Origin: a virus | Direction: 5' to 3' (one strand) | Length of the DNA stretch: 52,453 bases | IMG/VR virus record: IMGVR_UViG_3300042546_000489 | Coordinates: 1 to 52,453 of that record | Shown here: positions 1 through 52,453 of the stretch, piece after piece | How the letters are laid out: each line of letters begins with the position of its first letter | Position numbering within the stretch: the stretch's first letter is position 1 | Program-made: the position numbers and the translations under genes | The notes under the pieces: model-generated | The model's database searches: none | What the model saw: the letters and a program-made list of their open reading frames with translations, nothing else | Told to the model about the DNA's origin: nothing

Positions 1-318
1 GCTGGAAGCGGCTCGACGACAACACACGCCGCTACCGGATGGCGTACATCTCGACCGCAAAGAAGCAGGGCAAGTCCACGCTGCTTGCTGGTATCGGCCT
101 GTACCTTCTCGCCTTCGACGGCGAAGCCGGGGCCGAAATCTTCGGGTGCGGTGCCGATCGCGAGCAGGCGTCGATCGTGTTCCGCGAAGCGGCGAGCATG
201 GTGCGGGCGTCGCCCAAGCTCTCCCGCGTGCTGGAAGTCATCGACTCCCGCCGCACGATCGCTTACCGCAACGCGTCGTCGTTCTACCGAGTTCTGTCTG
301 CCGACGCGTTCCGGGCCG
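1..318. repeat. Left copy of the terminal direct repeat
   Basis: This stretch aligns base for base, without indels, with 52136-52453. I count 18 mismatches, all between positions 21 and 191; the last 127 bases are identical. Only three amino acids differ in the encoded terminase (Asn/Gly, Thr/Ser and Ala/Ile), so the variation is mostly silent. The simplest reading is a circular or circularly permuted genome assembled from a mixed population. Confidence 0.9.
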
Positions 319-6402: not shown

Positions 6403-6430
6403 TCCGGCTTGACACGACCGACACAGTGAG

Positions 6431-6466: not shown

Positions 6467-6478
6467 GGAGGGTGACGC

Positions 6479-9418: not shown

Positions 9419-9421
9419 CGC

Positions 9422-9799: not shown

Positions 9800-9817
9800 C
9801 GCGGGGAGGTTCCCGCA

Positions 9818-10132
9818 GTGGCGACGTACTCGACGGGCATCTCGGCGACGTGGGGCAGCGTGACGTTCACCGAGATCTCCGGTCTTTCGTGGACATACGG
9901 CGGCGAGAACGTCGGCCGGTCTGCGAACTTCAACCCGAATCCCGGCAGCGTCTCGGTGACTGCGTTCGGCACCGTCCCGAGCATCTCGCTCGTCGGCAAC
10001 CGTGACACCATCACGATCACGGGTGGCGGCGTGAACTTGACTCAGAAGGCAGTATTGGACTCGGTGTCCGCTGCCGCTGAAGTCAACGGCGTGGCTCGGT
10101 ACACCGCTGAGTTCACCCTTTTGGACAACTGA
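9818..10132 (+). CDS. Second tail tube-like protein
   Basis: A 104-aa beta-rich protein (for example VTFTEISGLSWTYGGENVGR) starting at a GTG with GGGGAGG (9803-9809) eight bases upstream, one of the stronger ribosome sites in this module. It ends one base before the tail assembly chaperone ATG. Like 9422-9799 it has tube-protein character but no decisive motif. It could be the main tube protein, an accessory tube protein or a tube-decorating domain. Confidence 0.55.
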   Translation: MATYSTGISATWGSVTFTEISGLSWTYGGENVGRSANFNPNPGSVSVTAFGTVPSISLVGNRDTITITGGGVNLTQKAVLDSVSAAAEVNGVARYTAEFTLLDN

Positions 10133-10133
10133 A

Positions 10134-10472
10134 ATGGCACTGACGCGAGAGCAGATCGAATCTTCTTCGGCGCGTATTGCCCCCGTCGAGGCGTTCGGCG
10201 GCGAGTGCTTCGTGCGGGTGATGAGCGTCGGAGATCGCGACGCCTACGAAGTGCTGGTGATCGAGCACGGCGGCAAGATATTCCCTGACTTTCGCAGCGA
10301 GCTCGTGTCTCGAACGCTGTGCGACGAAAAGGGGAAGCTCCTGTACCCAGGCGGCGATGGAATAGAGGCGATAAAGCAGTTGCCTTCGGATCACGTCCAC
10401 AAGGTATGGACGGCCGCGATGAAGCACAACGCCATGACCGAGGAGGAGATTCGCAAACTCGCGGGGGAATAA
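10134..10472 (+). CDS. Tail assembly chaperone, upstream frame
   Basis: A 112-aa acidic protein placed between the tube genes and the tape measure gene, where tailed phages encode the chaperone that coats the tape measure protein before tube assembly. It begins MALTREQIESSSARIAPVEA and ends EEEIRKLAGE. A run of five Gs sits just before its TAA stop, and a second open frame in the -1 register continues for about 100 codons, the lambda gpG/gpGT arrangement. The call rests on position, size and the overlapping frames. Confidence 0.75.
   Translation: MALTREQIESSSARIAPVEAFGGECFVRVMSVGDRDAYEVLVIEHGGKIFPDFRSELVSRTLCDEKGKLLYPGGDGIEAIKQLPSDHVHKVWTAAMKHNAMTEEEIRKLAGE
10463..10467 (+). promoter_or_regulatory. 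Candidate -1 ribosomal frameshift site
   Basis: The sequence GCG GGG GAA TAA ends the upstream chaperone frame. A GGG-reading tRNA can slip back one base on the G5 run and still pair GGG, after which reading continues through ATA AAC in the downstream frame. The A-site codon would change from GAA to GGA, so it is not a textbook heptamer, but the G run lies exactly before the stop. Confidence 0.6.
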
Positions 10473-10771
10473 ACGCCCGGCCCTCGCTGCTGTTCAAGCT
10501 GCGTCTGGCTGGGCATCTCGGGAAAACGCTCGCTGAAATCGACCAGATGGACTCGCGAGAGTTCTCGACGTGGATCGCGTACTCGCGATGGTTTCGCCCG
10601 CTCAACGACAGTTGGATGCAGATGGCAATGCTCGCCACGTGCGAGCTCGCTCCGCACACAAAGAAAACGCCGAGCCCGGAGCAGTTCATTCCAATCGACA
10701 CAAGTACGCCGCAGCACTGGACTCAGATTCACGCGACGATCGCGAAGATGAAGGCAGACTTGGAAGGATAG
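10463..10771 (+). CDS. Tail assembly chaperone, downstream frame (frameshift extension)
   Basis: This frame has no convincing start codon of its own. Read from the slip site it gives RPSLLFKLRLAGHLGKTLAE followed by a helical, Trp-rich segment (STWIAYSRWFRP) and ends KMKADLEG just before the tape measure gene. The fused 10134-10771 product would be about 212 aa, the size expected of a gpGT-type chaperone. The upstream part of the same frame (10319-10462) is low-complexity shadow sequence and is not included. Confidence 0.7.
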   Translation, partial: GGINARPSLLFKLRLAGHLGKTLAEIDQMDSREFSTWIAYSRWFRPLNDSWMQMAMLATCELAPHTKKTPSPEQFIPIDTSTPQHWTQIHATIAKMKADLEG

Positions 10772-10772
10772 C

Positions 10773-12989
10773 ATGGCTACCGATCTTGCGCTCGCGATGC
10801 AGATCAGCGCGAACACGACGCAACTCGCGTCAGCGGCTCGCGATGTGTCAGCGAAGCTGCAAGGCATGGCCCAGGCTGGACGCAAGGCTTCCGCCGACCT
10901 GGGCGTTCTGAAGACGATCGAGATTTCCCGCGTATTCGTGTCGTCCATCACGGCGGCGACAAGGTCGCTCTCGGCGATTGTCTCCGGTTCTGCCGCAGCG
11001 ATCGCAGGCGTGGACGACCTGAGCAAGCGCACGGGCGCTAGCACGCAGGCACTTCAGGCGTATCAGTTCGCCGCCGAGCAAAGCGGCGTCAGCGTCGAGA
11101 CGTTTGGTCGCAGCGTCCAGAAGCTCGGCATCAATCTGGGCGAGGCGCAGACGGGCAACAAGGCTACCGCGAAGTCATTCGCGGACCTTGGGCTGTCGGT
11201 CGATCAGTTGACGCAACTGAGCCCAGAGGCGGCGTTCGAGGCGGTAGCGGCAGCGATCGCGAAACTCCCAAACCCAGCGCAGCAGGCGGCGGCTGCGGTC
11301 AGCGTGTTCGGCAAGGCTGGTGCCGAACTTGTGCCTGTGTTTGCAGAGGGAGCAGGTTTTCTTGCGGACATGCGGGGCGAGGCGGTGCGTCTCGGTCTCG
11401 TCCTCGGCGAGCCGCAGGTGAGAAGCCTCGCTACGCTCGACGACTCGCTCGGAAAGGTATCGGCTACGTTTCGTGCCTTCACGGCTCGCGTAGTTGCGGA
11501 GCTTGCCCCCGCGCTGGTTGACGCAGCGGAGAACGCCGCCACCTTCATCGCATCCCTCGACGTGCGACAGATCGCCACGTCGATCACATCTCTCCTCGGC
11601 GGTGCGTCCCAGGTTGTTTCAGCGTTCGGCGAGGCATTCCTGTCGGTCTATCAATCGACGGCTCCGCTGGCGGCGACTGTGTTTCCGGCGATTGCGAGCT
11701 CACTTTCTTTCATCGCCAAAAACCTTCAAGGCGCTGCTGTCGGTGCTCTGGCTGCTGCCGGTGCGCTGGCTGGGTATTCATTAGCGGGACTGTCGGCTGC
11801 CACTGCCACGGCAACGCTTTCGGCAGCGATCACGACTCTCCTGTCTCGCACTGGTATCGGGCTCATCGTCGTGCTGGCAGGCACTGCGGCTGGGGCTCTC
11901 TTGAACTGGGCATCGTCTGCCAGCGACGCAGGAGCGGAGTCGCAGGCTGCAATCGCAAAAGCAAACGCTGCTATCGCGATCGCCGAGCAGTCCACTCGCG
12001 ACGCAACACAAGCCGTGCGTGAGTTTGGCAACGAGGCGACGCAGGCTTTCAAGTTGCCAGCCGAGATCACTGAGCAGACGCTCGTTCAAGACAGCATCAA
12101 CGAGGCTAGCACCGCGTTCCGCAATCTTGCGAAAGAGGCTGGCGGTCTGGCGAATGTTCCCGTCGCCGTCGGAGAGGCGTTCGAGACGCTAACGTTCTAC
12201 ATCCAAGGCGTTGAGAAGGGCATCGTCGATTCAGCGAGTCAGCAGGAAGCGATCGCCGAGTCGGCCGCAGTCGTTCTCGTCGAGATTCAGAAGATCGTCG
12301 AGGCACGCAAGGCTGAAGAGGAGGCGACGAAGGCGGCAGCCCAGGCGGCGCAGCAGGCGTCCGATGCGGCACGCAAGAGAACGGAAGAACTCGCTTCGGC
12401 TGGCGTTTCGGCGGCAGAGCAGTCTCGCGTCCAGTTGTCGAAGGATTTGCTCGCCATCACGCAGTCGCTCGCTGACGCCGAGGCGGCTGTCGCGGCGGCG
12501 AAGCAGAGCGGCGATCGGGCTTCGCTCCAAGCGGCGCAGGAGCGGCTGCGTCTGACTCAGGAGACCGCAGCGGCTGCGACGATTGAAGCTAAGCGGCAGG
12601 CCAGAGAGCGCGACCTCGCCGCCTTTGGCATCGACGAAGGACTCCTGAAGCCGGTGACGACGCTGCGAGACCAGTTCGTGAAGGTCCGCGAGGCTTTCGA
12701 TCGAGGTCTCGTCAATGGGGGCGAGGCAAGGCAGGCGCTCGAAAACCTCGCCGCCGAGGGAATTTCAATACGCGCCGACATTGCTGCCGAGCTCAGCCGC
12801 CCCGCGCAGAGGGCGCTCAGCGTCAACGACTTGCGGACCGCAGAGGGGGCGTCGCAGTTTCTCGCTTTCGCGACAGGGCGTGAAGACCCAGCCGTCGAGC
12901 AGGCACGCCAGCAAGTGCGGAAGCTCGATGAGATCAAGCAGGCACTCATCGCTATCGGTGCGAATCCGGTCGAGATCCTCGGCGGCTAA
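10773..12989 (+). CDS. Tail tape measure protein
   Basis: At 738 aa the longest tail gene. It is Ala-rich and mostly helical, with N-terminal coiled-coil segments (LASAARDVSAKLQGMAQAGR), a conserved tape-measure block (DDLSKRTGASTQALQAYQFA ... FGKAGAELVPVF), a hydrophobic central stretch (about residues 310-375) that probably inserts during DNA ejection, and long C-terminal Ala/Glu/Lys coiled coils. By the usual relation of about 1.5 angstrom per residue it would set a tail of roughly 110 nm. It directly follows the chaperone pair by one base. Confidence 0.9.
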   Translation: MATDLALAMQISANTTQLASAARDVSAKLQGMAQAGRKASADLGVLKTIEISRVFVSSITAATRSLSAIVSGSAAAIAGVDDLSKRTGASTQALQAYQFAAEQSGVSVETFGRSVQKLGINLGEAQTGNKATAKSFADLGLSVDQLTQLSPEAAFEAVAAAIAKLPNPAQQAAAAVSVFGKAGAELVPVFAEGAGFLADMRGEAVRLGLVLGEPQVRSLATLDDSLGKVSATFRAFTARVVAELAPALVDAAENAATFIASLDVRQIATSITSLLGGASQVVSAFGEAFLSVYQSTAPLAATVFPAIASSLSFIAKNLQGAAVGALAAAGALAGYSLAGLSAATATATLSAAITTLLSRTGIGLIVVLAGTAAGALLNWASSASDAGAESQAAIAKANAAIAIAEQSTRDATQAVREFGNEATQAFKLPAEITEQTLVQDSINEASTAFRNLAKEAGGLANVPVAVGEAFETLTFYIQGVEKGIVDSASQQEAIAESAAVVLVEIQKIVEARKAEEEATKAAAQAAQQASDAARKRTEELASAGVSAAEQSRVQLSKDLLAITQSLADAEAAVAAAKQSGDRASLQAAQERLRLTQETAAAATIEAKRQARERDLAAFGIDEGLLKPVTTLRDQFVKVREAFDRGLVNGGEARQALENLAAEGISIRADIAAELSRPAQRALSVNDLRTAEGASQFLAFATGREDPAVEQARQQVRKLDEIKQALIAIGANPVEILGG

Positions 12990-18318: not shown

Positions 18319-19176
18319 TCAGTTGATTCCCGGTAGCACCTCGCAAGGCGGCGGATCGCGATCAGTCAGGCGGCGATCGAGATACCAGCGGTGTGTGATT
18401 CGCGGGCTGGAGTGATCTAGCAACTTGACGGCGTCGCCCCCGAGGGCGGCGTAGTGCGATGCCGCAGAGCGTCGCAACTGATGAAAGCCGCACTTGCGGC
18501 CCGTGGGCAATCCGGCACGACGCACGACATCGCGATACTTCGTCCAGAGGTACTCTCGCGAGCCAGGCCACTCGAACACGCGGTTTTTGCCGCACGCTCT
18601 GGCGACGAGGTCATACGTCACCGGAGTGAGCCGGTACGCACGGTCTCGCTTGCCGCCCTTCCGATACTCGGCTCGCACGCTGAGAAACGGCGAGGCCAAG
18701 TCCTCTGGCCGACATGCCAGCACGGCTCCGATACGCTCGGCTGTTTCCCACAGCACGTTCACGAGCGCGGCGTACCAGATGCCCGCTGGCACCGTGCCGA
18801 CGCGTCCAGGTGTCGCCACGGCGGCACGCACGAGGGACCGCAACTGATCGACGCTCCACGCCTCTGGAATGCGGTCTGGCAGCGGAGCGGGCGGCACGCA
18901 CGGCCGGTCCCGAACGAATCCGCGATCAGCGGCGAACCGCCAGAGCGCGATGAGCTGCGTGCGTTCCTTCTCGGCCGTGTATGGACTGCGCGTGCTGCCA
19001 CGGTGCTCAAGAAACCGGCTGATCGTCAGATCGGTCAGGTCGTCAATCGTCGGCTCGTGCCGCAGCCACTTCCAGAACGAGCGAATCGTGCATCCGTACA
19101 GGCGGCTCGTGTTTGCTGATCGTCCGCGCAGCCGCAGCGGACGGTAGTAGTCATCGAACAGATTCTGCAGCGTCAT
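18319..19176 (-). CDS. int: Tyrosine recombinase (integrase)
   Basis: A 285-aa site-specific recombinase and the only confident minus-strand gene. The N-terminal SAM-like domain includes MTLQNLFDDYYRPLRLRGRS. The catalytic residues are recognisable: Arg in WETAERIGAVLAC, Lys in YRKGGKRDRAYRL, HxxR in FHQLRRSAASH, His in LLDHSSPRIT and the nucleophile Tyr in HRWYLDRR. The frame extends 64 codons further upstream, but ATG at 19176 has a near-perfect GAGGAGG nine bases before it and is chosen. It points to lysogeny by integration; the attachment site probably lies in or beside the gap after its start. Confidence 0.9.
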   Translation of the reverse strand: MTLQNLFDDYYRPLRLRGRSANTSRLYGCTIRSFWKWLRHEPTIDDLTDLTISRFLEHRGSTRSPYTAEKERTQLIALWRFAADRGFVRDRPCVPPAPLPDRIPEAWSVDQLRSLVRAAVATPGRVGTVPAGIWYAALVNVLWETAERIGAVLACRPEDLASPFLSVRAEYRKGGKRDRAYRLTPVTYDLVARACGKNRVFEWPGSREYLWTKYRDVVRRAGLPTGRKCGFHQLRRSAASHYAALGGDAVKLLDHSSPRITHRWYLDRRLTDRDPPPCEVLPGIN

Positions 19177-19356
19177 CGCGTGCCTCCTCGTAGGGGATAG
19201 GTCACGCATCCAAGCGTCGCAAGTCGGCTCCTGCCTGTAGGGGTTGAAACGATTAGTCGGCCGTCCGCGAATCCTGTCCCCGCCATTGCACGCCCGCCAG
19301 TCCGAGGGGATTGGCGGGCGTGCCTTGCTTCGATCGAAACTACAGGATCGCGAACA
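19177..19356. promoter_or_regulatory. Divergent control region between integrase and HTH gene
   Basis: A 180-base gap between oppositely oriented genes. It should hold the promoters for both and is the natural place for attP arms or operators. It contains two GTAGGGG words (19190-19250) and the long inverted repeat listed separately. I cannot define an attachment core or firm -35/-10 boxes here. Confidence 0.5.
19288..19323. repeat. 16-bp inverted repeat with 4-base loop
   Basis: Left arm 19288-19303 pairs with right arm 19308-19323 around GAGG, with one G-T pair. The arms include GCACGCCCGCCA and TGGCGGGCGTGC. No T-run follows on either strand, so an operator, an integrase/excisionase arm site or a leader hairpin is more likely than a terminator. 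Confidence 0.8.
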
Positions 19357-19575
19357 ATGGTCAAGCAACCGGACTACATTTCGGTTCCGAAGGCTGCAGA
19401 AATCCTCGGATGCTCGGACGTTTGGGTCATTCGGATGATCGAACGCGGCGAGCTCGAAGGCTTCCGGCTCTCTGGCCGCGCGTGGGCGGTGAGCCGCGCG
19501 TCAGTGGCGAAAAACCACGAGGAGTACCTCAAGCGAGACCCCACCCTCTCGGGAAGAAAGCGGTCACGCGCGTGA
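19357..19575 (+). CDS. HTH excisionase-family protein
   Basis: A 72-aa protein fitting the helix-turn-helix 17/MerR-like excisionase group (PF12728). SVPKAAEILGCSDVWVIRMI forms the HTH, and ERGELEGFRLSGRAWAVSRA the wing. Such proteins act as recombination directionality factors or small regulators. Divergent placement opposite the integrase across a shared control region supports an excisionase or early regulator role. The ribosome site is weak (AGGATCG about 8 bases upstream). Without a test it cannot be told from a general repressor. Confidence 0.7.
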   Translation: MVKQPDYISVPKAAEILGCSDVWVIRMIERGELEGFRLSGRAWAVSRASVAKNHEEYLKRDPTLSGRKRSRA

Positions 19576-24536: not shown

Positions 24537-25949
24537 ATGAGTTGGCACGACTCGTTCGATCGCATGAAGCGGCGTCCGCATCTGCTCGTCGTCTGCCCGC
24601 AAGCCGTTGCACCGGCCTGGGGGCGCGTCGTCGAGGCTGCGACGCGAGGTGAGTTGGCCGCGTGGTCGCATCAGTCGCAGGCTGCGGCGTGGTACGCCGA
24701 GCGGCACGCCGGAATGCTCGCGATGGATATGGGCACCGGCAAGACGTTCGCGGCCCTGCTGGCCCTCGACGCGATGCGGCATCCGCTGGTCTATCTCGAC
24801 CTGTCCCGTGGCACGGGCAAGCAGCGAGCCGAGCGGCTGCAGTCCGCCTTGTCGGTCGCGGGCGGGAAGTGCCTCGTCGTCGTGACGAACTACGAGTCGA
24901 TCTGGCGGTCGGCTCTGGCTCCGACGATCGAGTTGGTCAAGTGGGCGGCGATCGTGCTGGACGAGTCGCATCGGATCAAGGCACCGGGCGGTGCCGCGAG
25001 TCGATATCTCGCGAGGCTCGCTGCGAAGCAGCCGCATGCGAGGAGGCTGTGCCTCACCGGGACGCCGATGCCGCACTGGCCGCTCGACCTGTACGGGCAG
25101 TTTCGGTTCCTCGATCCGCAGGTGTACGGCACTTCGTTCGCGAGGATGCGTGCTCGATTCGCCGAGTGTGACACGAGGTTTCCATCGAAGGTGAAGTATT
25201 GGAAAAACCAAGACGAGTTGACCGCGAAGCTCGACGCGCACTCGTTCCGCGTCACGGCAGACGAGGTGCTCGACCTGCCCGAGGCGATTCATGAGACGTT
25301 GCCGGTGGAGTTGTCGCCGAAGGTTCAGCGGTTCTATCGGTCGCTCGAATCGGAGATGGTCGCGGAGATCGAGTCTGGGACGGTCACGGCGGCGAACGCG
25401 CTCACGAAGCTCCTGCGGATGCAGCAGGCGACCGGCGGATATGCCCGCATCGACGGCAGTGCGGAGGTCGTGCCGATCGACGGCACGCCAGCGAAGCGGA
25501 TGGTGCTGGCCGATCGTCTCGAAGACCTGCCGGTGACCGAGCCGGTAGTCGTGTTCTGCCGGTTTCGCTCCGACCTCGAAGACGTTGCCGCCGTGGCACG
25601 CGAGTTGGGACGCGAGTACGCCGAGGTATCCGGCGAGCGGAAAGACCTCGAACGGTGGCAGCGAGGCGACGCGGTGATTCTCGGCGTGCAGATGCAGTCA
25701 GGAGGCGTTGGCATCGACTGCTCGCGTGCCGCTTACGCCTTCTACTACTCGCTCGGCTTCAGCCTGGGCGACTACGAGCAGAGTCTGGCACGGCTGCGGC
25801 GACCGGGGCAGACGCGATGCGTGCGTTACTACCACCTCGTCTGTGAAGGCACGGTGGACGCGCAGGTGTATGCAGCACTACGGGAGCGTCGGCACGTCGT
25901 CGAGGCAGTGCTGCAACGGTTGACGCCGAGACAGGAGTCGGTGGCATGA
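24537..25949 (+). CDS. SNF2-like superfamily 2 helicase with displaced motif Ia
   Basis: A 470-aa ATP-dependent DNA translocase. Motifs: Q-like HQSQAAAW (45-52), Walker A DMGTGKT (64-70), TNYES (117-121), DESH (142-145), TGTP (174-177), then C-terminal QMQSGGVGIDCSRA (motif V) and EQSLARLRRPGQ (motif VI). Oddly, LLVVCPQAVAPAW, which looks like the motif Ia strand normally found after Walker A, lies at residues 16-28, before it; the usual place is taken by PLVYLDLSRGTGKQRAERLQ. AAGGAG precedes the ATG. Likely role in replication fork processing or DNA rearrangement. Confidence 0.85.
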   Translation: MSWHDSFDRMKRRPHLLVVCPQAVAPAWGRVVEAATRGELAAWSHQSQAAAWYAERHAGMLAMDMGTGKTFAALLALDAMRHPLVYLDLSRGTGKQRAERLQSALSVAGGKCLVVVTNYESIWRSALAPTIELVKWAAIVLDESHRIKAPGGAASRYLARLAAKQPHARRLCLTGTPMPHWPLDLYGQFRFLDPQVYGTSFARMRARFAECDTRFPSKVKYWKNQDELTAKLDAHSFRVTADEVLDLPEAIHETLPVELSPKVQRFYRSLESEMVAEIESGTVTAANALTKLLRMQQATGGYARIDGSAEVVPIDGTPAKRMVLADRLEDLPVTEPVVVFCRFRSDLEDVAAVARELGREYAEVSGERKDLERWQRGDAVILGVQMQSGGVGIDCSRAAYAFYYSLGFSLGDYEQSLARLRRPGQTRCVRYYHLVCEGTVDAQVYAALRERRHVVEAVLQRLTPRQESVA

Positions 25950-34372: not shown

Positions 34373-34575
34373 GATTCCGCCTGCCCGAGGACGAGGGCGA
34401 TTTCCGCGACTGCGTCGAAGGCTCGCGGGCGAAGTCGATCGTCATCCTGCTCGATGACCACCTCGCCACCGAGATCAAGGGCGGCGAGCTCGGCCACGAT
34501 GTCGAGGTGGCGTACCAGGAGCTCCGCGAGTGGCTGCGGAGTCAGTGTGCGGAGCACGGGCTCGATCTGCTGTGA
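34354..34575 (+). CDS. Small acidic hypothetical protein
   Basis: A 73-aa protein (PTATLRFRLPEDEGDFRDCV, later LGHDVEVAYQELREWLRSQC). It overlaps the protease end by 19 bases and the RusA start by four. Proteins of this size and character often precede RusA genes in phages, but no function is known. Confidence 0.5.
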   Translation: MPTATLRFRLPEDEGDFRDCVEGSRAKSIVILLDDHLATEIKGGELGHDVEVAYQELREWLRSQCAEHGLDLL

Positions 34576-34970
34576 CCATCACGCTGTCCATCCCCGGCGA
34601 TCCGGTGCCGCAACCGCGCCCGCGAGTGTCAACGCAGGGCGGGTTCGCTCGCGCGTACGTACCGAAGAGCCATCCAGTTCACGCCTACCGACAGGCGATC
34701 GCATTAGCGGCAAGCGTCGCCGGGCTCCGCGAGCAGGAGAAACCAGTCAGCGTCGTCATCGACGCGGTGTTCGCACGACCGAAATCTCACATGAACAAGG
34801 CAGGCGTGAAGCCGACCGCACCGGCACTGCCGCGACCCGACGTAGACAACCTGGGCAAGGCGGTCCTCGACGCATTGCAGGACGTGATGGGAGACGACAC
34901 GCACGTCGCACGGCTCGTCGTCGAGAAATCGTGGGGCACCGAAGGACGCACGACGGTGCGGATCACGTGA
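34572..34970 (+). CDS. rusA: RusA-type Holliday junction resolvase
   Basis: A 132-aa resolvase (PF05866). The N-terminus (TITLSIPGDPVPQPRPRVST) and the signature PRPDVDNLGKAVLDALQDVM with DDTHVARL, bearing catalytic Asp residues, are clear. It cuts four-way junctions so that branched DNA can be packaged. The GTG start makes a GTGA overlap with the previous stop, and its own end overlaps the next glycosyltransferase gene. Confidence 0.9.
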   Translation: MTITLSIPGDPVPQPRPRVSTQGGFARAYVPKSHPVHAYRQAIALAASVAGLREQEKPVSVVIDAVFARPKSHMNKAGVKPTAPALPRPDVDNLGKAVLDALQDVMGDDTHVARLVVEKSWGTEGRTTVRIT

Positions 34971-35563
34971 GCGTCGCGATCTTCACGAGCGCGGGTGTCG
35001 GCACGCCGTGGGCAGAGCTCACGGTGGCGAACCGTCTCGCGTACTGCGTGCGGCACGACTACACGATGGTGTGGCGGTGCGAGGCGTACTCGCAGGCGTT
35101 GTCGAACTTCTGGCGGATCGGGCAACTGCTCGAACACCATGACCTCGTGTGGACGCTGGACGCCGACTGCGTGATCACGAACCTGACGACCCGGATCGAG
35201 GACGTGCCCGATCTCGGGCCGCACATGACGATCTGCGAGGAGGGTATCGGCGCTCACGCCCTGGTGAACGGCGGGTCGATCGTGTGGCGTGCAACTCAAG
35301 GCACGCTGTCGCTGCTCGCCGACATCGTCGCTGCAGAGGACGAGTGGCGCTCGATGGAGTGGAACGTCCAGCAGTGGCTGATGAAGCACCGCGAGCGGCT
35401 AGCGGATCGCATGACGATCGCGCCGAAACGGGCTTTCAACTCTGTGCATCTCGGGCAGACGAACCACTGGCAGCACGGCGACCTGGTTTATCACCCGTGC
35501 GGTAATCCGCCCGCCATCCGATGCGACTTGATCCGCGAGTACCTGGGGCGGGTGGTCACATGA
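34967..35563 (+). CDS. GT-A-like glycosyltransferase (GT34-type appearance)
   Basis: A 198-aa protein. FWRIGQLLEHHDLVWTLDAD contains the DxD metal site (DAD) with the upstream helix typical of GMA12/MNN10-type galactosyl/mannosyl transferases. Acceptor-side EWNVQQWLMKHRERL and a closing His-rich segment follow. It opens a run of five overlapping genes (34967-38358), four glycosyltransferases and one methyltransferase. The GTG start overlaps the RusA stop. Donor and acceptor are unknown; GDP-fucose made by the phage is one candidate donor. Confidence 0.75.
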   Translation: MSVAIFTSAGVGTPWAELTVANRLAYCVRHDYTMVWRCEAYSQALSNFWRIGQLLEHHDLVWTLDADCVITNLTTRIEDVPDLGPHMTICEEGIGAHALVNGGSIVWRATQGTLSLLADIVAAEDEWRSMEWNVQQWLMKHRERLADRMTIAPKRAFNSVHLGQTNHWQHGDLVYHPCGNPPAIRCDLIREYLGRVVT

Positions 35564-36129
35564 GCTACCAGTTCACGCACGACTGGTTCTCGATGCGCAC
35601 GAACGCATGGCGAGAGCACGTGCTGCCTCGCCTGCCGCACCCGTGCCGATGGCTGGAGGTCGGCTCGCACGAGGGTCGCTCGGCGTGCTGGATGCTCGAT
35701 GAGGCGCTGAAGCCCGGCGACGTGATCACGTGCGTGGATACGTGGGGCGGGCCGTTCGACGGGTACTCGTCGGAGAATCCCGAGGCGCGGTTCGAAGCGA
35801 ACCTCGCGGGACGTGCCGAGAAGTTCAAGGGACGCTCGCACGTATTCTTCGCCCGTGCTCTCGCCGAGCATCGGATGTTCGACGGCGTCTACATCGACGG
35901 CGGGCACGAGGGCCGCACGGTGCTCGAAGACACCGTCCTCGCGTGGCGTCTGCTCAAAGTCGGCGCGGTCATCGTGTGGGACGACTACGAATGGCGCGAC
36001 CCGCACCCGAACCGGCAGCACCTGCCGACGCCGAAGCCCGCGATCGATGCGTTCCTCTCGCTCTACGGTCAATACCTCGACGTGCTGCATCGTGAGTGGC
36101 AAGTCATCGCCGTGAAGCGGGGCGAGTAA
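35560..36129 (+). CDS. Class I SAM-dependent methyltransferase
   Basis: A 189-aa protein with motif I in RWLEVGSHEGRSACWMLDEA, the acidic ribose contact in VITCVDTWGG, and FDGVYIDGGHEGRTVLEDTV followed by VIVWDDYEW, in line with the Methyltransf_24 type that modifies sugars or small molecules. No DNA-methylase motifs (PC or DPPY) are present. Embedded between glycosyltransferases, it probably O-methylates a glycan. It overlaps neighbours by four and one bases. Confidence 0.78.
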   Translation: MSYQFTHDWFSMRTNAWREHVLPRLPHPCRWLEVGSHEGRSACWMLDEALKPGDVITCVDTWGGPFDGYSSENPEARFEANLAGRAEKFKGRSHVFFARALAEHRMFDGVYIDGGHEGRTVLEDTVLAWRLLKVGAVIVWDDYEWRDPHPNRQHLPTPKPAIDAFLSLYGQYLDVLHREWQVIAVKRGE

Positions 36130-36734
36130 TGGACATCTACGCGATCACGACGAGCGTCAACTACGCGGACTACCTGGCGATTTGCCTCAACTGCCTCGCC
36201 GGTCAGGTCACGGGCGTCTGCGTTGTCACGGAGACGAACGACGCGAGCATCGCTGTCGCCGAGAAAGCCGAGGCGACGGCGCTGATCTATGACGGGTGGC
36301 ACGCCGACGATGCAGCGTTCAATAAGGCGGGTGCGATCCGGTTCGCCCAGGAGCACCTTCACGCCGCGTACCCGGAGGCGTGGTATCTGCTGATCGACGC
36401 CGACGTGATGGTGCCGACGAACGCACGCCAGATCATCGAGCAGGACGCGACGAATCCCGAGACGCTCTACGGCGCGAGGCGGGTCGATTTCCACACGCCC
36501 GAGCGGCTCATGGACGGCAAGCCGAACAAGGCATACGCCTCGATGTTCGCCGGATTCTTTCAGCTGTACCGGCGGCACGTGCTGTACCCGGAGTGGTCAC
36601 GCACGGCCGAGCTCTGCGACCTGTCGTTCGCGAAGCAGTTCGCGTCGTGCGTCGTGCTGCCGATGACGGTCGGTCACTGCGGCGTCGAGGCGGTCAACTG
36701 GGAGGGGCGGCGTTCGCCGCTCTGGAAATGCTGA
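36129..36734 (+). CDS. GT-A-like glycosyltransferase
   Basis: A 201-aa protein. DIYAITTSVNYADYLAICL at the N-terminus and EAWYLLIDADVMVPTNARQI (DAD motif) fit a GT-A glycosyltransferase. Later FAGFFQLYRRHVLYPEWSR and VGHCGVEAVNWEGR are acceptor-side features. TAATG couples it to the methyltransferase and its end overlaps the next gene by seven bases. Confidence 0.72.
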   Translation: MDIYAITTSVNYADYLAICLNCLAGQVTGVCVVTETNDASIAVAEKAEATALIYDGWHADDAAFNKAGAIRFAQEHLHAAYPEAWYLLIDADVMVPTNARQIIEQDATNPETLYGARRVDFHTPERLMDGKPNKAYASMFAGFFQLYRRHVLYPEWSRTAELCDLSFAKQFASCVVLPMTVGHCGVEAVNWEGRRSPLWKC

Positions 36735-37501
36735 CCATCTTCACGCTCGTGCTCAACGGGCAGCCGTACATCGAGCAGCACCTCGCGACGTTTCGCCAGC
36801 TCACGATCCCGTGGCAGTGGCGGATCGTCGAGGGCGTCGCGGCACCGACGCACTGCACCGCGTGGTGTCAGACGATGCCGGACAAGTGGCACCGGGACTT
36901 CGTCAGCGTGGACGGTACGCACGAGTACGTGCGGGCGGTGAACAACACGCCGAACGTGACCTGCTCGTGGCGTCACTCACCGTGGGACGGCAAGATCGCG
37001 ATGATCGCACGCGCCCTCGAAGGCGTCGAAGGCGGCGTCGTCATGCAGGTGGACAGCGACGAGCTCTGGCAGGCGTGGCAGTTGGAGCGGATCTACTGGC
37101 TGATGATGCAGCAGCCGGTGGCGACCGCCGCCCGGTTCGCGTGCCGCTACTGGGTCGGGCCGTCGAAGCTCCTGACGAGCACGACGGGCTGGGCACGCGG
37201 CGACCTCGAATGGCTGCGAGCGTGGCGTTGGGGACCGGGCATGCGGTTCCTCCGACACGAGCCGCCGATCGTCACGGGGTTTGACCGGTGCGTCACGATC
37301 GAATCAACGCAGGCGGCCGGGCTCGTGTTCGATCACTTCGCGTACACGACCGAGCAGCAGATTGCCATGAAGCAGGACTACTACGGGTACACGGGGCTGA
37401 CCGATGCGTGGCATCGGCTCCAGGCGACGAGCGGGCCTGTGAATCTTCAAGAGTTCTTTCCGTTCGCCATCGGGGCGACAGCGGATGACGTGGGGATATG
37501 A
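36728..37501 (+). CDS. GT2-like glycosyltransferase
   Basis: A 257-aa protein beginning MLTIFTLVLNGQPYIEQHLA, a GT2-like start, with GGVVMQVDSDELWQAWQLER carrying the DSD metal site. The C-terminal half has many aromatic residues (DHFAYTTEQQIAMKQDYYGY). Part of the glycosyltransferase run; substrates unknown. Confidence 0.72.
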   Translation: MLTIFTLVLNGQPYIEQHLATFRQLTIPWQWRIVEGVAAPTHCTAWCQTMPDKWHRDFVSVDGTHEYVRAVNNTPNVTCSWRHSPWDGKIAMIARALEGVEGGVVMQVDSDELWQAWQLERIYWLMMQQPVATAARFACRYWVGPSKLLTSTTGWARGDLEWLRAWRWGPGMRFLRHEPPIVTGFDRCVTIESTQAAGLVFDHFAYTTEQQIAMKQDYYGYTGLTDAWHRLQATSGPVNLQEFFPFAIGATADDVGI

Positions 37502-38358
37502 CGACCTACACCATCACCGCCTCCGACATCGAGGCTCACCGCCCCGACGTGCTGCTCCCGCCCGACGAGGAGTTCGTGGAGCAGTACGCCGAAGCCGTGC
37601 GTGTCGGGCGAGAGGTCGCAGCCGATCGCACGGCCTCGCTGGTTGCCATCTGCCGCAATGCCATGCCCTGGCTGCCGCAGACGCTCGGGCTCGTAGAGGA
37701 GACGGGCGCGATGTTCCGCTCGTGGTCGGCGTACATCTTCGAGAACGACTCGTCCGACGAGACGAAGGACGCGCTCGCGGCGTGGGCCGATGGCACGCAG
37801 AGGCAAGTGTCGCTGAACATCAACCACCGGCCGCACCTCTCGCATACGATCGACACCGAGCGGACGGTCGCACTCGCGGAGTACCGCACGCAGTGCCAGC
37901 GGTGGGTGCGGCACGGCGAGCCGTGCGACTATGTCGTCGTGTTCGACTCCGATGCCTGGGGCGGCTGGAGCGTTGACGGCGTCGCGACGAGCGTGGGACA
38001 TATCGAGGCGGCTCGCGGGGCGTCGTGCATGGCGAGCTATTCGTGGGCGGAGCACAACGGGTACGCGATCCACTACGACGCATTCGCGGCACGGTGGAAT
38101 CACTGGCGGCGTCGCGATCAAACGTGGTTCCATCACTGGCACCCGCCTGTCGGCTCGCTGCCGCTGCGATTCAACAGCGCCTTCGGGCAACTGGCGCTCT
38201 ACCGGAGGGACGCCTACCTCGCCATGCGGTACAGCGGCGAGGACTGCGAGCACGTGTGTGCTCATCGCACGATGCCGGGGCGGTTGTATCTCAACCCGTC
38301 GAGCCGGTGCGTCTCCTACTGGACACCACGCGATGCCGGGCAACACGGCGACAATTGA
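37498..38358 (+). CDS. Glycosyltransferase-like protein
   Basis: A 286-aa protein. SLVAICRNAMPWLPQTLGLV and SAYIFENDSSDETKDALAAW resemble the donor-binding half of GT2-type enzymes, and CDYVVVFDSDAWGGWSVDG holds a DSD site. The C-terminus (GRLYLNPSSRCVSYWTPRD) completes the fold. It closes the run of overlapping sugar-transfer genes. Specific linkage unknown. Confidence 0.7.
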   Translation: MTTYTITASDIEAHRPDVLLPPDEEFVEQYAEAVRVGREVAADRTASLVAICRNAMPWLPQTLGLVEETGAMFRSWSAYIFENDSSDETKDALAAWADGTQRQVSLNINHRPHLSHTIDTERTVALAEYRTQCQRWVRHGEPCDYVVVFDSDAWGGWSVDGVATSVGHIEAARGASCMASYSWAEHNGYAIHYDAFAARWNHWRRRDQTWFHHWHPPVGSLPLRFNSAFGQLALYRRDAYLAMRYSGEDCEHVCAHRTMPGRLYLNPSSRCVSYWTPRDAGQHGDN

Positions 38359-46549: not shown

Positions 46550-46575
46550 GTTGACACGTGCCGCACCATGCGGGC

Positions 46576-47502
46576 ATGGACATATCAACCAAGCGAATCC
46601 TCGTCACGGGCGGTGCCGGGTTTCTCGGCAAGGCAGTCTGCCGCGTGCTGCACAGTCGCGGATGCCGTCACGTGATCGTGCCTCGCCGGGTCGCGTGCGA
46701 CCTGACCAGCGAGGAGGACACGATCGACCTGTTTGACGACCACCGGCCCGAAGTCGTTCTGCACCTCGCGGCCGAAGTCGGCGGCATCGGGGCGAACATG
46801 GCGACGCCGGGAAGGTTTACCTACGCGAACCTCGCGATGGGGCTGCACGTGATCGAGCAGTGCCGACGGTTCGAGGTCGAGAAGGTCGTCGTCGTCGGCA
46901 CGGTGTGCAGCTACCCGCTCGATCCGCCCGTGCCGTTCGTCGAATCGGACTTGTGGAACGGCTACCCCGAACCAACGAACGCCGGATACGGCGTGGCGAA
47001 GCGTGCGGTCTACGAACTACTCAAGCAGTACAACAAGCAATATTCGCTCCCCGGTGCCGTTGTGATTCCGACAAACCTGTACGGCCCGCACGACAACTTC
47101 GACCCGGTGTCTTCGCATGTGATCCCGGCGATGATCCGGCGATTCTGCCGCACCGATCCGGTGACGCTCTGGGGGACGGGATGTGCGTCGCGAGAGTTCC
47201 TCCACGTGGACGACGCTGCCGAAGGCATCGTGCGAGCAGCGGAGAAGGTGACGACGCCCGATCCGATCAATCTCGGTGGTGGCGGCGAGGTGCAGATGAG
47301 GAAGCTCGCCGAGATGATCGCGGGCGAGTGCGGCTACATGGGCACGATCCGCTGGGACTCCTCGAAGCCAGACGGACAGCCGAGGCGTGCGGTCGATGCG
47401 ACCCGAGCCCGCGAGATTCTCGGGTGGACGCCGAGAGTCAGCCTACAGAACGGCATCGCCGAGACGGTCTCGTGGTGGAGGGATCAATGCGTGTCGCTCT
47501 GA
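46576..47502 (+). CDS. fcl: GDP-L-fucose synthase
   Basis: A 308-aa short-chain dehydrogenase that turns GDP-4-keto-6-deoxy-mannose into GDP-L-fucose using NADPH. The dinucleotide motif [26 protein letters not shown] (with the catalytic Cys), NAGYGVAK (Tyr-Lys pair) and [20 protein letters not shown] (with the His) follow the E. coli enzyme closely. One of the Ser positions next to the Cys reads Thr/Val here. ATG 46576 lies six bases after a TTGACAC-N6-CACCATG element. Paired with gmd. Confidence 0.9.
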
Positions 47503-48455
47503 TCACCGGCATCACCGGGCAGGACGGCTCCTATCTCGCTGAGCTCCTGCTCGCGAAGGGCTATATCGTCCACGGCATCGTGCGGCGGTCGAGCACGTTC
47601 GGCACGCAACGAATCGAGCACATCTTCCACCGGCTCAACCTGCACTACGGCGACGTGACCGACGGCGGTGCGATGGCAAGGCTCGTCGCTGAGATCGAGC
47701 CAGACGAGCTCTACAACCTCGCGGCGCAGAGCCACGTGCGGGTGTCGTTCGACCAGCCCGCGTACACGGCGGAAGCGGTCGGGCTCGGAGCGCTCAACGT
47801 CCTCGAAGCAGCCCGCGTCGTGCCGGGATGTCGTGTCTATCAAGCGTCCTCCTCCGAGATGTACGGGCAGGTCGCCGAGACACCCCAGCGGGAGACGACG
47901 CCGTTTCGTCCACGATCACCGTACGGCGTGGCGAAGGTCTACGCTCACTGGATCACGGTGAACTACCGCGAGAGCTACGGGATGCACGCATCGTGCGGCA
48001 TCCTGTTCAATCACGAGAGCCCGAGGCGCGGCGAGACGTTCGTGACCCGCAAGATCACGCGGGCGGCGGCACGCATCGCCAGCGGCATCCACGAGACGCT
48101 GTACCTGGGCAACCTCGACGCCCGGCGGGATTGGGGCCACGCAGCCGACTACGTCGAGGCCATGTGGCTCATGCTGCAACAGGACGAGCCCGACGACTAC
48201 GTCATCGCCACGGGCGAGACGCACAGCGTGCGGGAGTTCTGCGAGCGGGCGTTTGCCCACGTGGGGCTCGACTACCGCGACCACGTCGAGATCGACCCAC
48301 GCTACTACCGACCGGCTGAGGTGGACCTGCTCCAGGGCGACGCGAGCAAGGCACGCAGGCAGTTGGGCTGGGTGCCGAGCGTGACGTTCGAGGGGCTCGT
48401 GGCGGGCATGATGGACGCGGAACTGCAAGCGTTACGGGGACGCGTGGTAGCGTGA
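47487..48455 (+). CDS. gmd: GDP-mannose 4,6-dehydratase
   Basis: A 322-aa enzyme that makes GDP-4-keto-6-deoxy-mannose, the substrate of the upstream gene product. [20 protein letters not shown] binds [40 protein letters not shown] (Tyr/Lys) and [19 protein letters not shown] are signatures of the family. GGAGGGATC precedes the ATG, which overlaps fcl by 16 bases. Only GDP-mannose from the host is needed to complete the pathway. Confidence 0.92.
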
Positions 48456-48991: not shown

Positions 48992-49627
48992 ATGAACATT
49001 CGAAACCGCGTCAAATCGCTCCGTATGGTCCCTGCGAGCGACCTCCGGCCCAATCCGAAGAACTGGCGAACGCACCCGAAAGCCCAGCAGGACGCCCTCC
49101 GGGGCGTGCTGGCCGAGGTCGGGCTGGCCGACGCCTGCCTCGCCCGCGAACTGCCCGACGGCTCCCTCATGCTGATCGACGGCCACCTTCGAGCCGAGAC
49201 GCTTGGCGACGGCGACGTGCCAGTTCTGATCCTCGACGTGACCGAGGCCGAGGCCGACAAGATTCTCGCGACGCTCGACCCGCTCGCTGCGATGGCGGAC
49301 TCCGACGCGGCCAAGTTGGAGGAGTTGCTGCACACGGTCAACACGAGCAGCCAAGCGTTGCAGGAGTTGATCGCGGCGACAGCGTCGCAGGCCGGGCTGT
49401 ACGAAGACCTGAACGCAGAAACGTCAGAAGAAGGCGACGATCCGAGCGACGAAGACGAGGCCGACGATCCGCCGCCGAGTGGCGTTCGCATGGTGCAGTT
49501 GTTCCTCGACGAGTCGAATATCGGCGAGTTCCAAGACGCCTGCACCAAACTTGCCGAGGAGTACGCGACCGAGAACATCACCGACACCGTGATGGAGGCG
49601 GTTCGCCGTGCAAGTGCATCACTGTAA
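48992..49627 (+). CDS. ParB-like nuclease-domain protein
   Basis: A 211-aa protein. VPASDLRPNPKNWRTHPKAQ and ELPDGSLMLIDGHLRAETLG are the conserved ends of a ParB/Srx-type domain. Helical middle and an acidic linker (EEGDDPSDEDEADDPPP) follow, then a C-terminal SGVRMVQLFLDESNIGEFQD domain. In phages, ParB-like proteins recur beside terminases and beside TET/JBP dioxygenases, suggesting sequence-specific DNA handling for modification or packaging. No strong ribosome site is seen; the gene follows a terminator and needs its own promoter. Confidence 0.8.
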   Translation: MNIRNRVKSLRMVPASDLRPNPKNWRTHPKAQQDALRGVLAEVGLADACLARELPDGSLMLIDGHLRAETLGDGDVPVLILDVTEAEADKILATLDPLAAMADSDAAKLEELLHTVNTSSQALQELIAATASQAGLYEDLNAETSEEGDDPSDEDEADDPPPSGVRMVQLFLDESNIGEFQDACTKLAEEYATENITDTVMEAVRRASASL

Positions 49628-50525
49628 GGAGAAGTTCCAAGCCGACTACCTCGCAGGAACCAAGCTCGACGAGTCGCACTACGACCACCTGCTTGGCGGC
49701 GACGAACCGTGTGACGTGTTCAAGCCTGACGGAACGCCTCTCGTGAAGTACCGCCCGCGTTGGTTCAGCGAGGGGCTGTGCAAATCGGTTATGCCTGCGT
49801 GCCGCAAGGCGGCGACGAAAACGAACAACCGGGGTATGGCCGCTGGTGACATCAAGGAAGTTGAACTCGGAACGCAAAGACCGATTGCGGCGCTCACCAA
49901 AACGCACTTCCGCACTATCAAGGAAGACGGCACGATCAGCAACACGACGCGAGGCGGCGAGGTAGAGAGCGGCATCATCGGCTACTTCGACCGGAGCGCC
50001 AGGTTCCCGTTCTGCCGCCAGACCTCATTCCTCATCTCGCAGGCCGCGTCGTGGAAGCGTTTCCTCCCGTACATCGAACGAGCCGACGAAGGTTTCCGCG
50101 AGCTCATGCCCGACCGATGGGCGGTGCAGCGCGGGTACGCCAGCCGCACCGCGTCGGATTGGGTGATCCCGCAAAGCACGTTCACGACGGTCACGGTCAA
50201 CAAGAACTTCCAGACCGCGACCCATAAAGACGCTGGCGACCTCGCATCTGGCTTCGGCGTGATGTCGTGCCTGCGGAACGACAAGTACGACGGAGCGTAT
50301 CTGGTGTTCCCGGCGTACCGCGTTGCGGTGAACTTCGGACACGGCTGCCTCTGCCTCGCAGATGTCCATGAGTGGCACAGCAACACGCCGTTCACAAGAA
50401 TGCGGCTCGGCTACGAACGCATCACGCTCGTTTTCTACTACCGCGAGAACATGATTCACTGCAAGGAAGCGAAGGCGGAAGTCGAGTGGGCGAAGAACAG
50501 AAAAAGAGGGGAGCCACTGGCGTAA
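49608..50525 (+). CDS. TET/JBP-like 2-oxoglutarate/Fe(II) dioxygenase
   Basis: A 305-aa protein. The C-terminal half has the iron- and cofactor-binding pattern of TET/JBP base dioxygenases: NKNFQTATHKDAGDLASGFG with His206 and Asp208 (HxD), DGAYLVFPAYRVAVNFGHGC, ADVHEWHSNTPF with the distal His (254 or 257), and Arg271 in YERITLVFYYREN for 2-oxoglutarate. Such enzymes hydroxylate methyl groups of 5-methylcytosine or thymine in DNA; phage versions act in hypermodification. The GTG start has GGAGG 9 bases upstream; it overlaps the ParB-like gene by 20 bases and the next gene by one. Confidence 0.85.
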   Translation: MQVHHCKEKFQADYLAGTKLDESHYDHLLGGDEPCDVFKPDGTPLVKYRPRWFSEGLCKSVMPACRKAATKTNNRGMAAGDIKEVELGTQRPIAALTKTHFRTIKEDGTISNTTRGGEVESGIIGYFDRSARFPFCRQTSFLISQAASWKRFLPYIERADEGFRELMPDRWAVQRGYASRTASDWVIPQSTFTTVTVNKNFQTATHKDAGDLASGFGVMSCLRNDKYDGAYLVFPAYRVAVNFGHGCLCLADVHEWHSNTPFTRMRLGYERITLVFYYRENMIHCKEAKAEVEWAKNRKRGEPLA

Positions 50526-51469
50526 TGGCTGTATGCCTTTTCTATCTCGCGGAACCGAAGTACGGCGGATGGCCAACCTACACGTCGCATCTCTACAGAG
50601 GACTCGCGGAAATAGGCAAACGACCTGTCCTGTTCAAGATAGGAAACACAACTGACGGCAGGATGCGACCGTACGGCAGGGGGATTGAATACACGAACGT
50701 CACGCTAAGCGATGCAGTTTCAATGGCGCGTGGTAACCCCTGCTTCATCACCGCAGTCGGGAAGGGCTACTACGACGCCGCTTGCAGTTTGATGCTGTCA
50801 GGTGCATCCGTTTGCGTGCACGACCCAACGGAGCTGAAAGAACCTTTCGCATCGGCACTCCCAGCCGCAAAGGTGATTGTGATCCGTGAGTCGATGCTTT
50901 CGCACCTACCTCGCGCGAAGTTCATCCTTCATCCTTACGCGCCTCGCGGGCAGCAAGGAACCAAAGAAAAACTAGCGTGCGCGATATCAAGAATCGACCA
51001 TGACAAAAACACAGCCATCATCGCATCTGCGAACGAACGGCTAAAAGAGCCCGTTCAACTTTACGGCGCGATCAACCGCATCTACTCATACTTCACGCTA
51101 GACGCGAAGCACCCCGGCTGGGAGAAGAACTACGTCTTAGCACCGAGCGCGAGCAGCCTCTGGGCGTGCCAGAAAATCGCTTGCGGATACAAGAAAGTGG
51201 TCGATCTGTCCGTCATCAAGAAAGACGGCAGAGGAACGCAGTATACGTTTCTTGAGGCCGTGGACGCAGGCTGCTCGCTGGTTTTGCACAAAGCGTGGGA
51301 ACCGACTGGGTTGCTTTCGCAGTTGAGTCGCACCGTGCAAGATGCAGACGGCTTGGTCGAAGAGCTTTCGAGGCCGTGCAAGTTCGACAAGAAAGCCGCC
51401 AGCCGATTGTTGGCACACCACTGCCACAAAAAAATAGCGGCACAAACCTGCGAAGCGATAGGAGCCTGA
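50525..51469 (+). CDS. GT-B-like glycosyltransferase linked to the dioxygenase
   Basis: A 314-aa protein. AVCLFYLAEPKYGGWPTYTS is a GT4/GT-B-like opening with a Gly-rich loop, and GRGTQYTFLEAVDAGCSLVL near the end is the donor-site helix region of that fold. TAATG couples it to the dioxygenase; the likely natural role is adding a sugar to the hydroxylated base. Base use is clearly different: 50941-51060 is about 51% G+C versus 68% at 47701-47760, suggesting recent transfer. The fold is inferred from these two regions. Confidence 0.65.
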   Translation: MAVCLFYLAEPKYGGWPTYTSHLYRGLAEIGKRPVLFKIGNTTDGRMRPYGRGIEYTNVTLSDAVSMARGNPCFITAVGKGYYDAACSLMLSGASVCVHDPTELKEPFASALPAAKVIVIRESMLSHLPRAKFILHPYAPRGQQGTKEKLACAISRIDHDKNTAIIASANERLKEPVQLYGAINRIYSYFTLDAKHPGWEKNYVLAPSASSLWACQKIACGYKKVVDLSVIKKDGRGTQYTFLEAVDAGCSLVLHKAWEPTGLLSQLSRTVQDADGLVEELSRPCKFDKKAASRLLAHHCHKKIAAQTCEAIGA

Positions 51470-51470
51470 C

Positions 51471-51998
51471 ATGGGAAAGCGCGGCCCCGCCCCTGAACCG
51501 TCGATCCTGAAATACATTCGCGGCAACCCGTCGAAGACGGCGCTGCCGACGAACGAGCCGACGCCAGACCTGCTCGACAAGCTCGACCCGCCAGCCTCGA
51601 TCAATGACGATCCGGTCGCCGTGCAAAAGTGGCACGAGACCGTTCCGACGCTGCGGCGGATGCGCGTGTTCACGGAGGCCGACGTGGATGCGTGGGCGAT
51701 CTATTGCCACACGTGGTCTAAGTGGATTGAGGCGAAAGAGAAGTGCAAGCAGTTCGGCCGCGACAACGTGCAGATGGAGCCAGACCCGAATCGAACCGAC
51801 GGGAGGATGCGGATCAAGTGGACGCAGCCGTACTCGTGGGCGGTTGACGAGCGATCGCTCCGCAACGATCTGCGTCGCCTTCAGCAGGACTTCGGCATGA
51901 CGCCGAGCAGCCGTTCGCAGGTGAGCACGCATGCCCAAGAAGAAGCAGACCCGGTTGCCGATTACGCTGCGAAGAGACGCCGAACGCCAGGGGCTTGA
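51471..51998 (+). CDS. terS: Terminase small subunit, P27 family
   Basis: A 175-aa protein of the phage P27 small terminase group (Terminase_4, PF05119). GKRGPAPEPSILKYIRGNPS at the N-terminus and VAVQKWHETVPTLRRMRVFT with WAIYCHTWSKWIEAKEKCKQ are typical. It recognises phage DNA and regulates the large subunit. AGGAG is 6 bases before the ATG, one base after the glycosyltransferase stop. It overlaps terL by 68 bases. Confidence 0.88.
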   Translation: MGKRGPAPEPSILKYIRGNPSKTALPTNEPTPDLLDKLDPPASINDDPVAVQKWHETVPTLRRMRVFTEADVDAWAIYCHTWSKWIEAKEKCKQFGRDNVQMEPDPNRTDGRMRIKWTQPYSWAVDERSLRNDLRRLQQDFGMTPSSRSQVSTHAQEEADPVADYAAKRRRTPGA

Positions 51999-52453
51999 CT
52001 ACTACTTCGATCCAGAGGCTGCGCAACACGTCGTCGGCTTTTTCGAGAAGTGGCTGCGACACTCGAAGGGCAAGCACGCAGGCGAGCCGTTCGCGTTGCT
52101 CGATTGGCAGACCGCGATGCTCGGCGAGTTGTTCGGCTGGAAGCGGCTCGACGACGGATCTCGCCGCTACCGGATGGCGTACATCTCGACCGCAAAGAAG
52201 CAGGGCAAGTCCACGTTGCTTGCTGGCATCGGCCTGTACCTTCTTGCCTTCGACGGTGAGATCGGGGCGGAAATCTTCGGGTGCGGGGCCGACCGCGAGC
52301 AGGCGTCGATCGTGTTTCGCGAGGCTGCGAGCATGGTGCGGGCGTCGCCCAAGCTCTCCCGCGTGCTGGAAGTCATCGACTCCCGCCGCACGATCGCTTA
52401 CCGCAACGCGTCGTCGTTCTACCGAGTTCTGTCTGCCGACGCGTTCCGGGCCG
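51931..52453 (+). CDS. terL: Terminase large subunit, N-terminal part (runs off the window)
   Basis: This frame starts PKKKQTRLPITLRRDAERQG after the ATG and continues FEKWLRHSKGKHAGEPFALL, DWQTAMLGELFGWKRLDDGS to the Walker A. It corresponds to residues 1 to about 174 and supplies the 81 residues missing from the copy at the window start. From 52136 it repeats the left end with three amino-acid differences. The pair is best read as one gene split by the way the circle was opened. Confidence 0.92.
   Translation, partial: MPKKKQTRLPITLRRDAERQGLDYYFDPEAAQHVVGFFEKWLRHSKGKHAGEPFALLDWQTAMLGELFGWKRLDDGSRRYRMAYISTAKKQGKSTLLAGIGLYLLAFDGEIGAEIFGCGADREQASIVFREAASMVRASPKLSRVLEVIDSRRTIAYRNASSFYRVLSADAFRA
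52136..52453. repeat. Right copy of the terminal direct repeat
   Basis: Partner of 1-318, about 94% identical and indel-free. Removing one copy gives a circular map of 52,135 bp with terL intact. Confidence 0.9.

Follow-up and report, generated by a model that had tools for sequence, protein, structure and literature searches.

A ParB-linked TET/JBP dioxygenase gene and its probable glycosyltransferase neighbour in a phage genome with no detected C5-methyltransferase

Which base is oxidised by a phage TET/JBP dioxygenase when no DNA cytosine-5 methyltransferase (C5-MT) is visible in the same genome? Characterised phage TETs act on 5-methylcytosine (5mC) made by a partner methylase, and the large branch of TETs devoid of this partner raises the possibility of thymine hydroxylation in viruses, as in trypanosomes. 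The question is posed by the stretch of DNA analysed here (hereafter the window; 52,453 nucleotides). For its dioxygenase gene, an initial annotation had left three options: 5mC is supplied by the host, the enzyme acts on thymine, or the methylase is encoded outside the window. The substrate question is tractable because the TET gene is adjoined by a ParB-like gene and by a gene for a probable glycosyltransferase, neither of which was mentioned in that annotation. From sequence comparisons, we favour with moderate confidence a thymine-directed ParB-TET cassette, in which the GT-B-like neighbour would glycosylate 5-hydroxymethyluracil (5hmU) to a base-J-like product.

The TET gene and its neighbours

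The open reading frame that had been read as a base dioxygenase is present, and its product is a TET/JBP dioxygenase by family, fold and catalytic residues. PF12851 matches it with E=3.9e-20 (72.1 bits for a curated cut-off of 34.9, domain positions 2-164 of 164) and PHROG 24024 with E=7e-66. An AlphaFold2 model built with 40 sequences has a mean pLDDT of 93.7. The solved structures nearest to this model are human TET2 (Z 21.6 over 264 residues), NgTet1 from Naegleria (Z 18.9), CMD1 and CcTET. AlkB-type structures rank after the TET-type ones, with Z values of at most 13.9, showing that the fold is a TET-like double-stranded beta-helix. A single-sequence phmmer search of the PDB gave no match, and a profile was required to align TET2. 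In this profile alignment, the Fe ligands are H206, D208 and H257 (HxD...H) and the 2-oxoglutarate-binding arginine is R271. These four residues are kept in all clades aligned, one Melnitz row being truncated.

On the + strand, the gene order is epimerase, GDP-mannose dehydratase, HNH, ParB-like protein, TET, a further ORF, terminase small subunit and terminase large subunit (Table 1). The ParB-like gene overlaps the start of the TET gene by 20 bp, and the ORF that follows shares a single base with the end of the TET gene. With ParB upstream and terminase downstream, the locus has the arrangement of a ParB-TET cassette. Neither an amino acid:DNA transferase (ADDT, PF18724; aGPT-PPlase) nor a P-loop nucleotide kinase (5hmU kinase) was found in Pfam scans of the main ORFs of the window.

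Table 1. Positions of the TET cassette, of flanking genes and of the terminal repeat in the window
Feature	Position	Strand	Basis or remark
Imperfect end repeat	1..318	.	Matches 52136-52453; 300/318 identical, no gaps; within terL
NAD-dependent epimerase (WcaG-like)	46558..47502	+	Pfam Epimerase E=1e-60
GDP-mannose 4,6-dehydratase	47487..48455	+	Pfam GDP_Man_Dehyd E=5e-140; start inferred from domain boundary
ParB-like protein (ParB_N type)	48992..49627	+	PHROG ParB-like partition protein, E down to 1e-11
TET/JBP 2-oxoglutarate/Fe(II) dioxygenase	49608..50525	+	305 aa, GTG start; Pfam PF12851 (Tet_JBP), PHROG 24024
Probable GT-B (GT4-like) glycosyltransferase, TET-linked	50525..51469	+	314 aa; Foldseek of low-confidence model
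Terminase small subunit	51471..51998	+	Pfam Terminase_4 E=2e-15, PHROG 83 E=5e-23; directly downstream of cassette
Terminase large subunit (terL), 5' part	51931..52453	+	Continues at 3-1415 across contig join

The ORF downstream of TET encodes a probable GT-B (GT4-like) glycosyltransferase. No match to its product was obtained with Pfam, with NCBIfam or in a profile search of the PDB. The top Foldseek matches of its model, which is of low confidence (pLDDT 52.8), are mostly GT-B enzymes with E-values of 7e-5 to 1e-3, including PglA (E=7e-5) and AviGT4. Distant homologues of this gene were found in two other loci, L189 (35% identity), with the order ParB - actinophage-type TET - GT-B, and L182, an Actinomadura prophage (40% identity), with the order ParB - GT-B - TET - terminase. 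Because these homologues recur beside ParB and TET in unrelated genomes, the GT-B-like gene appears to be a real partner of TET. The epimerase and the dehydratase possibly supply a nucleotide sugar. This pair is also present in L002 and L008, but an obligate partnership with the GT-B was not supported, since L003-L005 carry the GT-B gene with no such pair seen beside TET.

In another reading, the substrate of the dioxygenase would be 6mA, RNA, a free nucleotide or part of a sugar pathway for tail or capsid, and the glycosyltransferase would join the remaining sugar genes in surface glycosylation. Further sugar genes are located at 34-38 kb and 46.5-48.5 kb, and the fungal enzyme CcTET accepts both 6mA and 5mC (PMC12730594). 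However, a TET with GT-B or with a TET-associated glycosyltransferase (TAGT) beside ParB and near the terminase recurs in many unrelated genomes, and the decorators ADDT and TAGT are DNA-modification families. We therefore consider this reading very improbable.

Some other features of the window were recorded. The phage may be temperate, since a tyrosine-recombinase-type integrase is encoded at 18319-19368 (- strand). A search for tRNA genes in the window found none. A SNF2-family helicase (24537-25949; PF00176, E=8e-22) is encoded by a gene separate from TET. In JBP2, a SNF2 domain is fused to the oxygenase.

C5-methyltransferases and genome closure

A six-frame PF00145 search of the whole window returned no C5-MT candidate, and a scan for motifs I, IV and VI in all its stop-to-stop frames also returned none. 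The phage relative L114, whose TET is 71% identical to that of the window, encodes a small C5-MT of 236 residues (3102-3812; motifs DLFCGAGM, PPCQ and VVENV) located 6.2 kb upstream of TET. This enzyme reaches 25-26 bits with PF00145, for a cut-off of 22, indicating that short phage C5-MTs can be almost invisible to standard profiles. Of the C5-MTs met in relatives it is the most divergent, and as a phmmer query against the window it gave no match. Together with the empty motif scan, this argues against a divergent C5-MT hidden in the window. A route to 5mC through free nucleotides (5-methyl-dCMP), which would need a homologue of thymidylate synthase (PF00303), was rejected as well: such enzymes were found in none of 31 records, and the window has none. 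The methyltransferase noticed near 35560 corresponds to 35521-36129 and belongs to the Pfam family Methyltransf_24, which is not a C5-MT family. In this region (34454-38358), a cluster encodes a Glyco_transf_34-like protein, the Methyltransf_24 protein and a Glyco_tranf_2_4-like protein, which may serve sugars of the surface or of DNA.

The window looks like a complete genome that closes into a circle of about 52.1 kb. Its ends overlap by 318 bp within terL (Table 1). The genome of L114 runs through the junction of the ends with the same gene order, and its terL aligns to both terL pieces of the window, with 77% and 66% identity.

Overall, the initial annotation was right that the window contains no C5-MT, that the methyltransferase at 35560 is not one and that the window appears to be a whole genome. 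It had proposed an all-frame motif search and named a C5-MT in the window as the finding that would overturn it; the search was run, and no such enzyme was found. Its set of three options was also sound, but the closure of the genome makes the third, a methylase encoded elsewhere than in the window, unlikely.

Partners, decorators and pocket residues of viral TETs

About 300 related TET loci were collected, and their neighbours were scored with profiles built in this analysis. In the Melnitz-type clade, 107 of 115 loci have a C5-MT as the gene immediately before TET. In the clade of the window, this place is taken by a ParB-like homologue (84/91 loci), as it is in the actinophage clade (12/16). 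The T4-like Cr30 clade has neither C5-MT nor ParB in the TET flanks examined, and a PF00145 search of 30 whole Cr30-type records, including contigs of 88-197 kb, returned no C5-MT. When ParB-TET records of viruses and phages were searched in full with PF00145, L114 alone had a C5-MT. The split between C5-MT and ParB is largely a clade-level one: the C5-MT label changes about four times on the tree, which offers just three independent pairs. Statistical independence of the split was therefore rejected, and the Fisher p of 4e-17, being pseudo-replicated, is given with no claim of significance.

The genes that follow TET are freely exchanged decorators: TAGT, FkbM methyltransferase, ADDT, P-loop kinase, amidotransferase, GNAT, radical SAM and GT-B-like proteins. 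ADDT (PF18724, E=7e-20) is found in 73 loci, every one of which lacks a C5-MT; the 111 loci that have a C5-MT all lack ADDT. ADDT is known from thymidine-hypermodifying phages and is homologous (E 2e-22) to a Salmonella phage gene annotated as alpha-glutamyl/putrescinyl thymine pyrophosphorylase. P-loop kinase and TAGT were rejected as markers of base identity, since both are found with C5-MT-linked as well as with C5-MT-less TETs.

Two groups of annotations drew attention in this survey. The Cr30-type loci (L193-L272) encode long TETs of about 440 residues, with ADDT in 53 of 84 loci and with no C5-MT or ParB found; several of these TETs are annotated 'putative SNF2 DNA repair protein', a label perhaps copied from kinetoplastid JBP2. 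For the Coopervirus-type TET (NC_011044 and other mycobacteriophage records H22-H74), PHROG 6059 and many RefSeq entries give the name 'queuine tRNA-ribosyltransferase', which looks like a misannotation.

From these data, the TET gene probably supplies the oxidation in a cassette for DNA-base hypermodification, with the order ParB - TET - decorator - terminase. In replicated phage DNA, TET would hydroxylate a pyrimidine at its 5-methyl group. The base is most likely thymine, which would give 5hmU. The thymine route needs no C5-MT because thymine already bears the methyl group. The adjoining GT-B-like enzyme would then put a sugar on the hydroxymethyl group, as in base J. Gene order suggests that the ParB-like protein, which occupies the genomic slot of the C5-MT in cytosine-type cassettes, would replace that enzyme as the partner and target TET to DNA. 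Finally, the adjacent terminase would package the modified DNA, which may resist restriction. Base identity, sugar transfer, the role of ParB and the protective purpose are thus all put forward here as predictions.

Alternatively, the substrate may be cytosine, with the methyl group provided by a C5-MT of the host, of a co-infecting phage or of a prophage. TET would then oxidise 5mC at few motifs and the GT-B would glycosylate 5hmC. According to Burke 2021, as cited in PMC12730594 and PMC11404850, the phage TETs reported as active act on 5mC. Moreover, two relatives with ParB-TET also have a C5-MT, and these keep the 5mC reading alive: L114, described above, and the L182 prophage, which shares the GT-B family of the window and in which the C5-MT lies about 1 kb upstream of ParB and adjoins a radical SAM gene. 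The TETs of L114 and L182 nevertheless retain T196 and R279 as in the C5-MT-less group (see below), so that their C5-MTs may be unrelated to TET. Furthermore, if the cassette relied on a host enzyme unrelated to it, few sites would be modified and the outcome would vary from host to host, and ADDT-bearing TETs never occur with a C5-MT. In L182 (Actinomadura rayongensis prophage, 5051-10927), the order is radical SAM/SPASM, C5-MT, ParB, GT-B, TET and terminase; a radical SAM gene also follows TET in L114, L017 and L111, suggesting a radical-SAM decorated base.

The hosts of complete ParB-TET phages also bear on this alternative. Those with no C5-MT include Nigel, Zemanar and Acadian, which infect Mycobacterium smegmatis and carry ParB-TET-terminase, and the pelagiphage HTVC112P, which carries ParB-TET; in neither M. 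smegmatis nor Pelagibacter is 5mC established. For M. smegmatis, re-examination is however advised (PMC4938668). For Pelagibacter, the reported methylome is GANTC (PMC9516812); m5C is poorly detected by SMRT sequencing. Thymine is favoured over host 5mC because ParB is a fixed partner, because ADDT is found only with C5-MT-less TETs and because several complete ParB-TET phages have hosts in which 5mC is not established. We consider the cytosine route unlikely.

Residues of the substrate pocket were then compared. In the TET of the window, T196, D211, N259, Y277 and R279 are in the pocket register; positions 196, 259 and 279 were assigned to the pocket by alignment register. T196, N259 and R279 are invariant in 175 of 175 TETs of the ParB clade and of the Cr30 type, which are poor in C5-MT. 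At the same positions, the C5-MT clade has S, V and D or G, and the actinophage TETs have V, V and L. D211 is in register with TET2 N1387 and with NgTet1 D234, which contacts the N4 of 5mC. It is conserved, as the cytosine route would have it, but it is an invariant Asp both in the clade of the window and in the C5-MT clade. For this reason it gives no argument for thymine, and it was rejected as a discriminator between thymine and 5mC.

The pocket also bears on a third possibility, a relaxed specificity, in which TET would oxidise the 5-methyl group of either thymine or 5mC and work with or without a C5-MT. Closely related TETs with a C5-MT (L114) and without one (the window, L003-L005, L016) have the same pocket residues, and TAGT and P-loop kinases are common to both kinds of cassette. 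NgTet1 is said to act weakly on thymine. However, TETs of the C5-MT clade are tightly tied to a C5-MT, suggesting specialisation at least there, and we regard relaxed specificity as improbable.

Overall, the comparative evidence favours thymine over host 5mC, a choice that the initial annotation had left between them, but the C5-MTs of L114 and L182 together with the conserved D211 keep thymine at the level of a probable substrate. The Rhodococcus phage Tonitrus carries a ParB-TET-aGPT-Pplase-5hmU kinase cassette annotated as thymidine hypermodification (PMC11955845). Outside Burke 2021, Iyer 2013 and Lee 2021, to which it did not extend, our literature search found no thymine-acting phage TET. 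As a tentative generalisation, phages may possess an in situ base-J pathway, in which a ParB-guided, thymine-hydroxylating TET and a previously unclassified GT-B glycosylating its product would form part of a large C5-MT-less TET branch with freely exchanged decorators (sugar, amino acid, methyl, acyl).

Comparison with known hypermodification systems

Earlier work had already described or predicted the association of TET/JBP with ParB and the thymidine hypermodification cassettes. New here are the GT-B variant, a clean division of viral TETs into two groups according to partner, and the candidate specificity residues. The survey provides two clades to compare, three residues as candidates for specificity and a glycosyltransferase of no assigned class; a few purified proteins would suffice for tests in vitro. 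If the thymine reading is true, thymine hydroxylation by TET/JBP enzymes would be placed in viruses and a thymine-versus-5mC switch (T196/N259/R279) could be mapped. A TET that acts on thymine regardless of sequence would, in addition, be of use as a reagent.

The phage C5-MT-TET cytosine clusters (Burke et al. 2021; Melnitz phages) share with the window the TET/JBP fold and the catalytic residues, and with its group the downstream decorators (TAGT, P-loop kinase) and a presumed oxidation of 5-methylpyrimidines in DNA. They differ in having a C5-MT directly upstream, no ParB partner and an S/V/D-or-G pocket, and they form a separate clade. A C5-MT encoded with TET, which defines a cytosine hypermodification system, is absent from the window.

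The ParB-TET-aGPT-Pplase (ADDT) cassettes of actinophages (Coopervirus relatives, Tonitrus) and of marine phages, predicted to carry out thymidine hypermodification, resemble the window in having ParB directly before TET, in most cases a decorator after it, then the terminase, and no C5-MT. In the window, however, the decorator is GT-B-like instead of ADDT, and its TET has T/N/R at the three pocket positions as compared to V/V/L in the actinophage enzymes.

The kinetoplastid JBP1/JBP2 enzymes and the J-specific glucosyltransferase, which make base J, follow the same two-step logic as proposed here, oxidation of thymine and then glycosylation. Unlike this system, the TET of the window has no fused J-binding domain and has ParB as its partner, and its base and sugar are predicted. 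In the thymidine hypermodification of the ViI-like, SP10 and M6 phages, 5-hydroxymethyl-dUMP is made before incorporation. In the window, where no thymidylate-synthase-type enzyme was found, the hydroxymethyl group would instead be made in DNA by TET. Relatives of the ADDT and P-loop kinase of these phages (Lee et al. 2018, 2021) also occur with C5-MT-less TETs.
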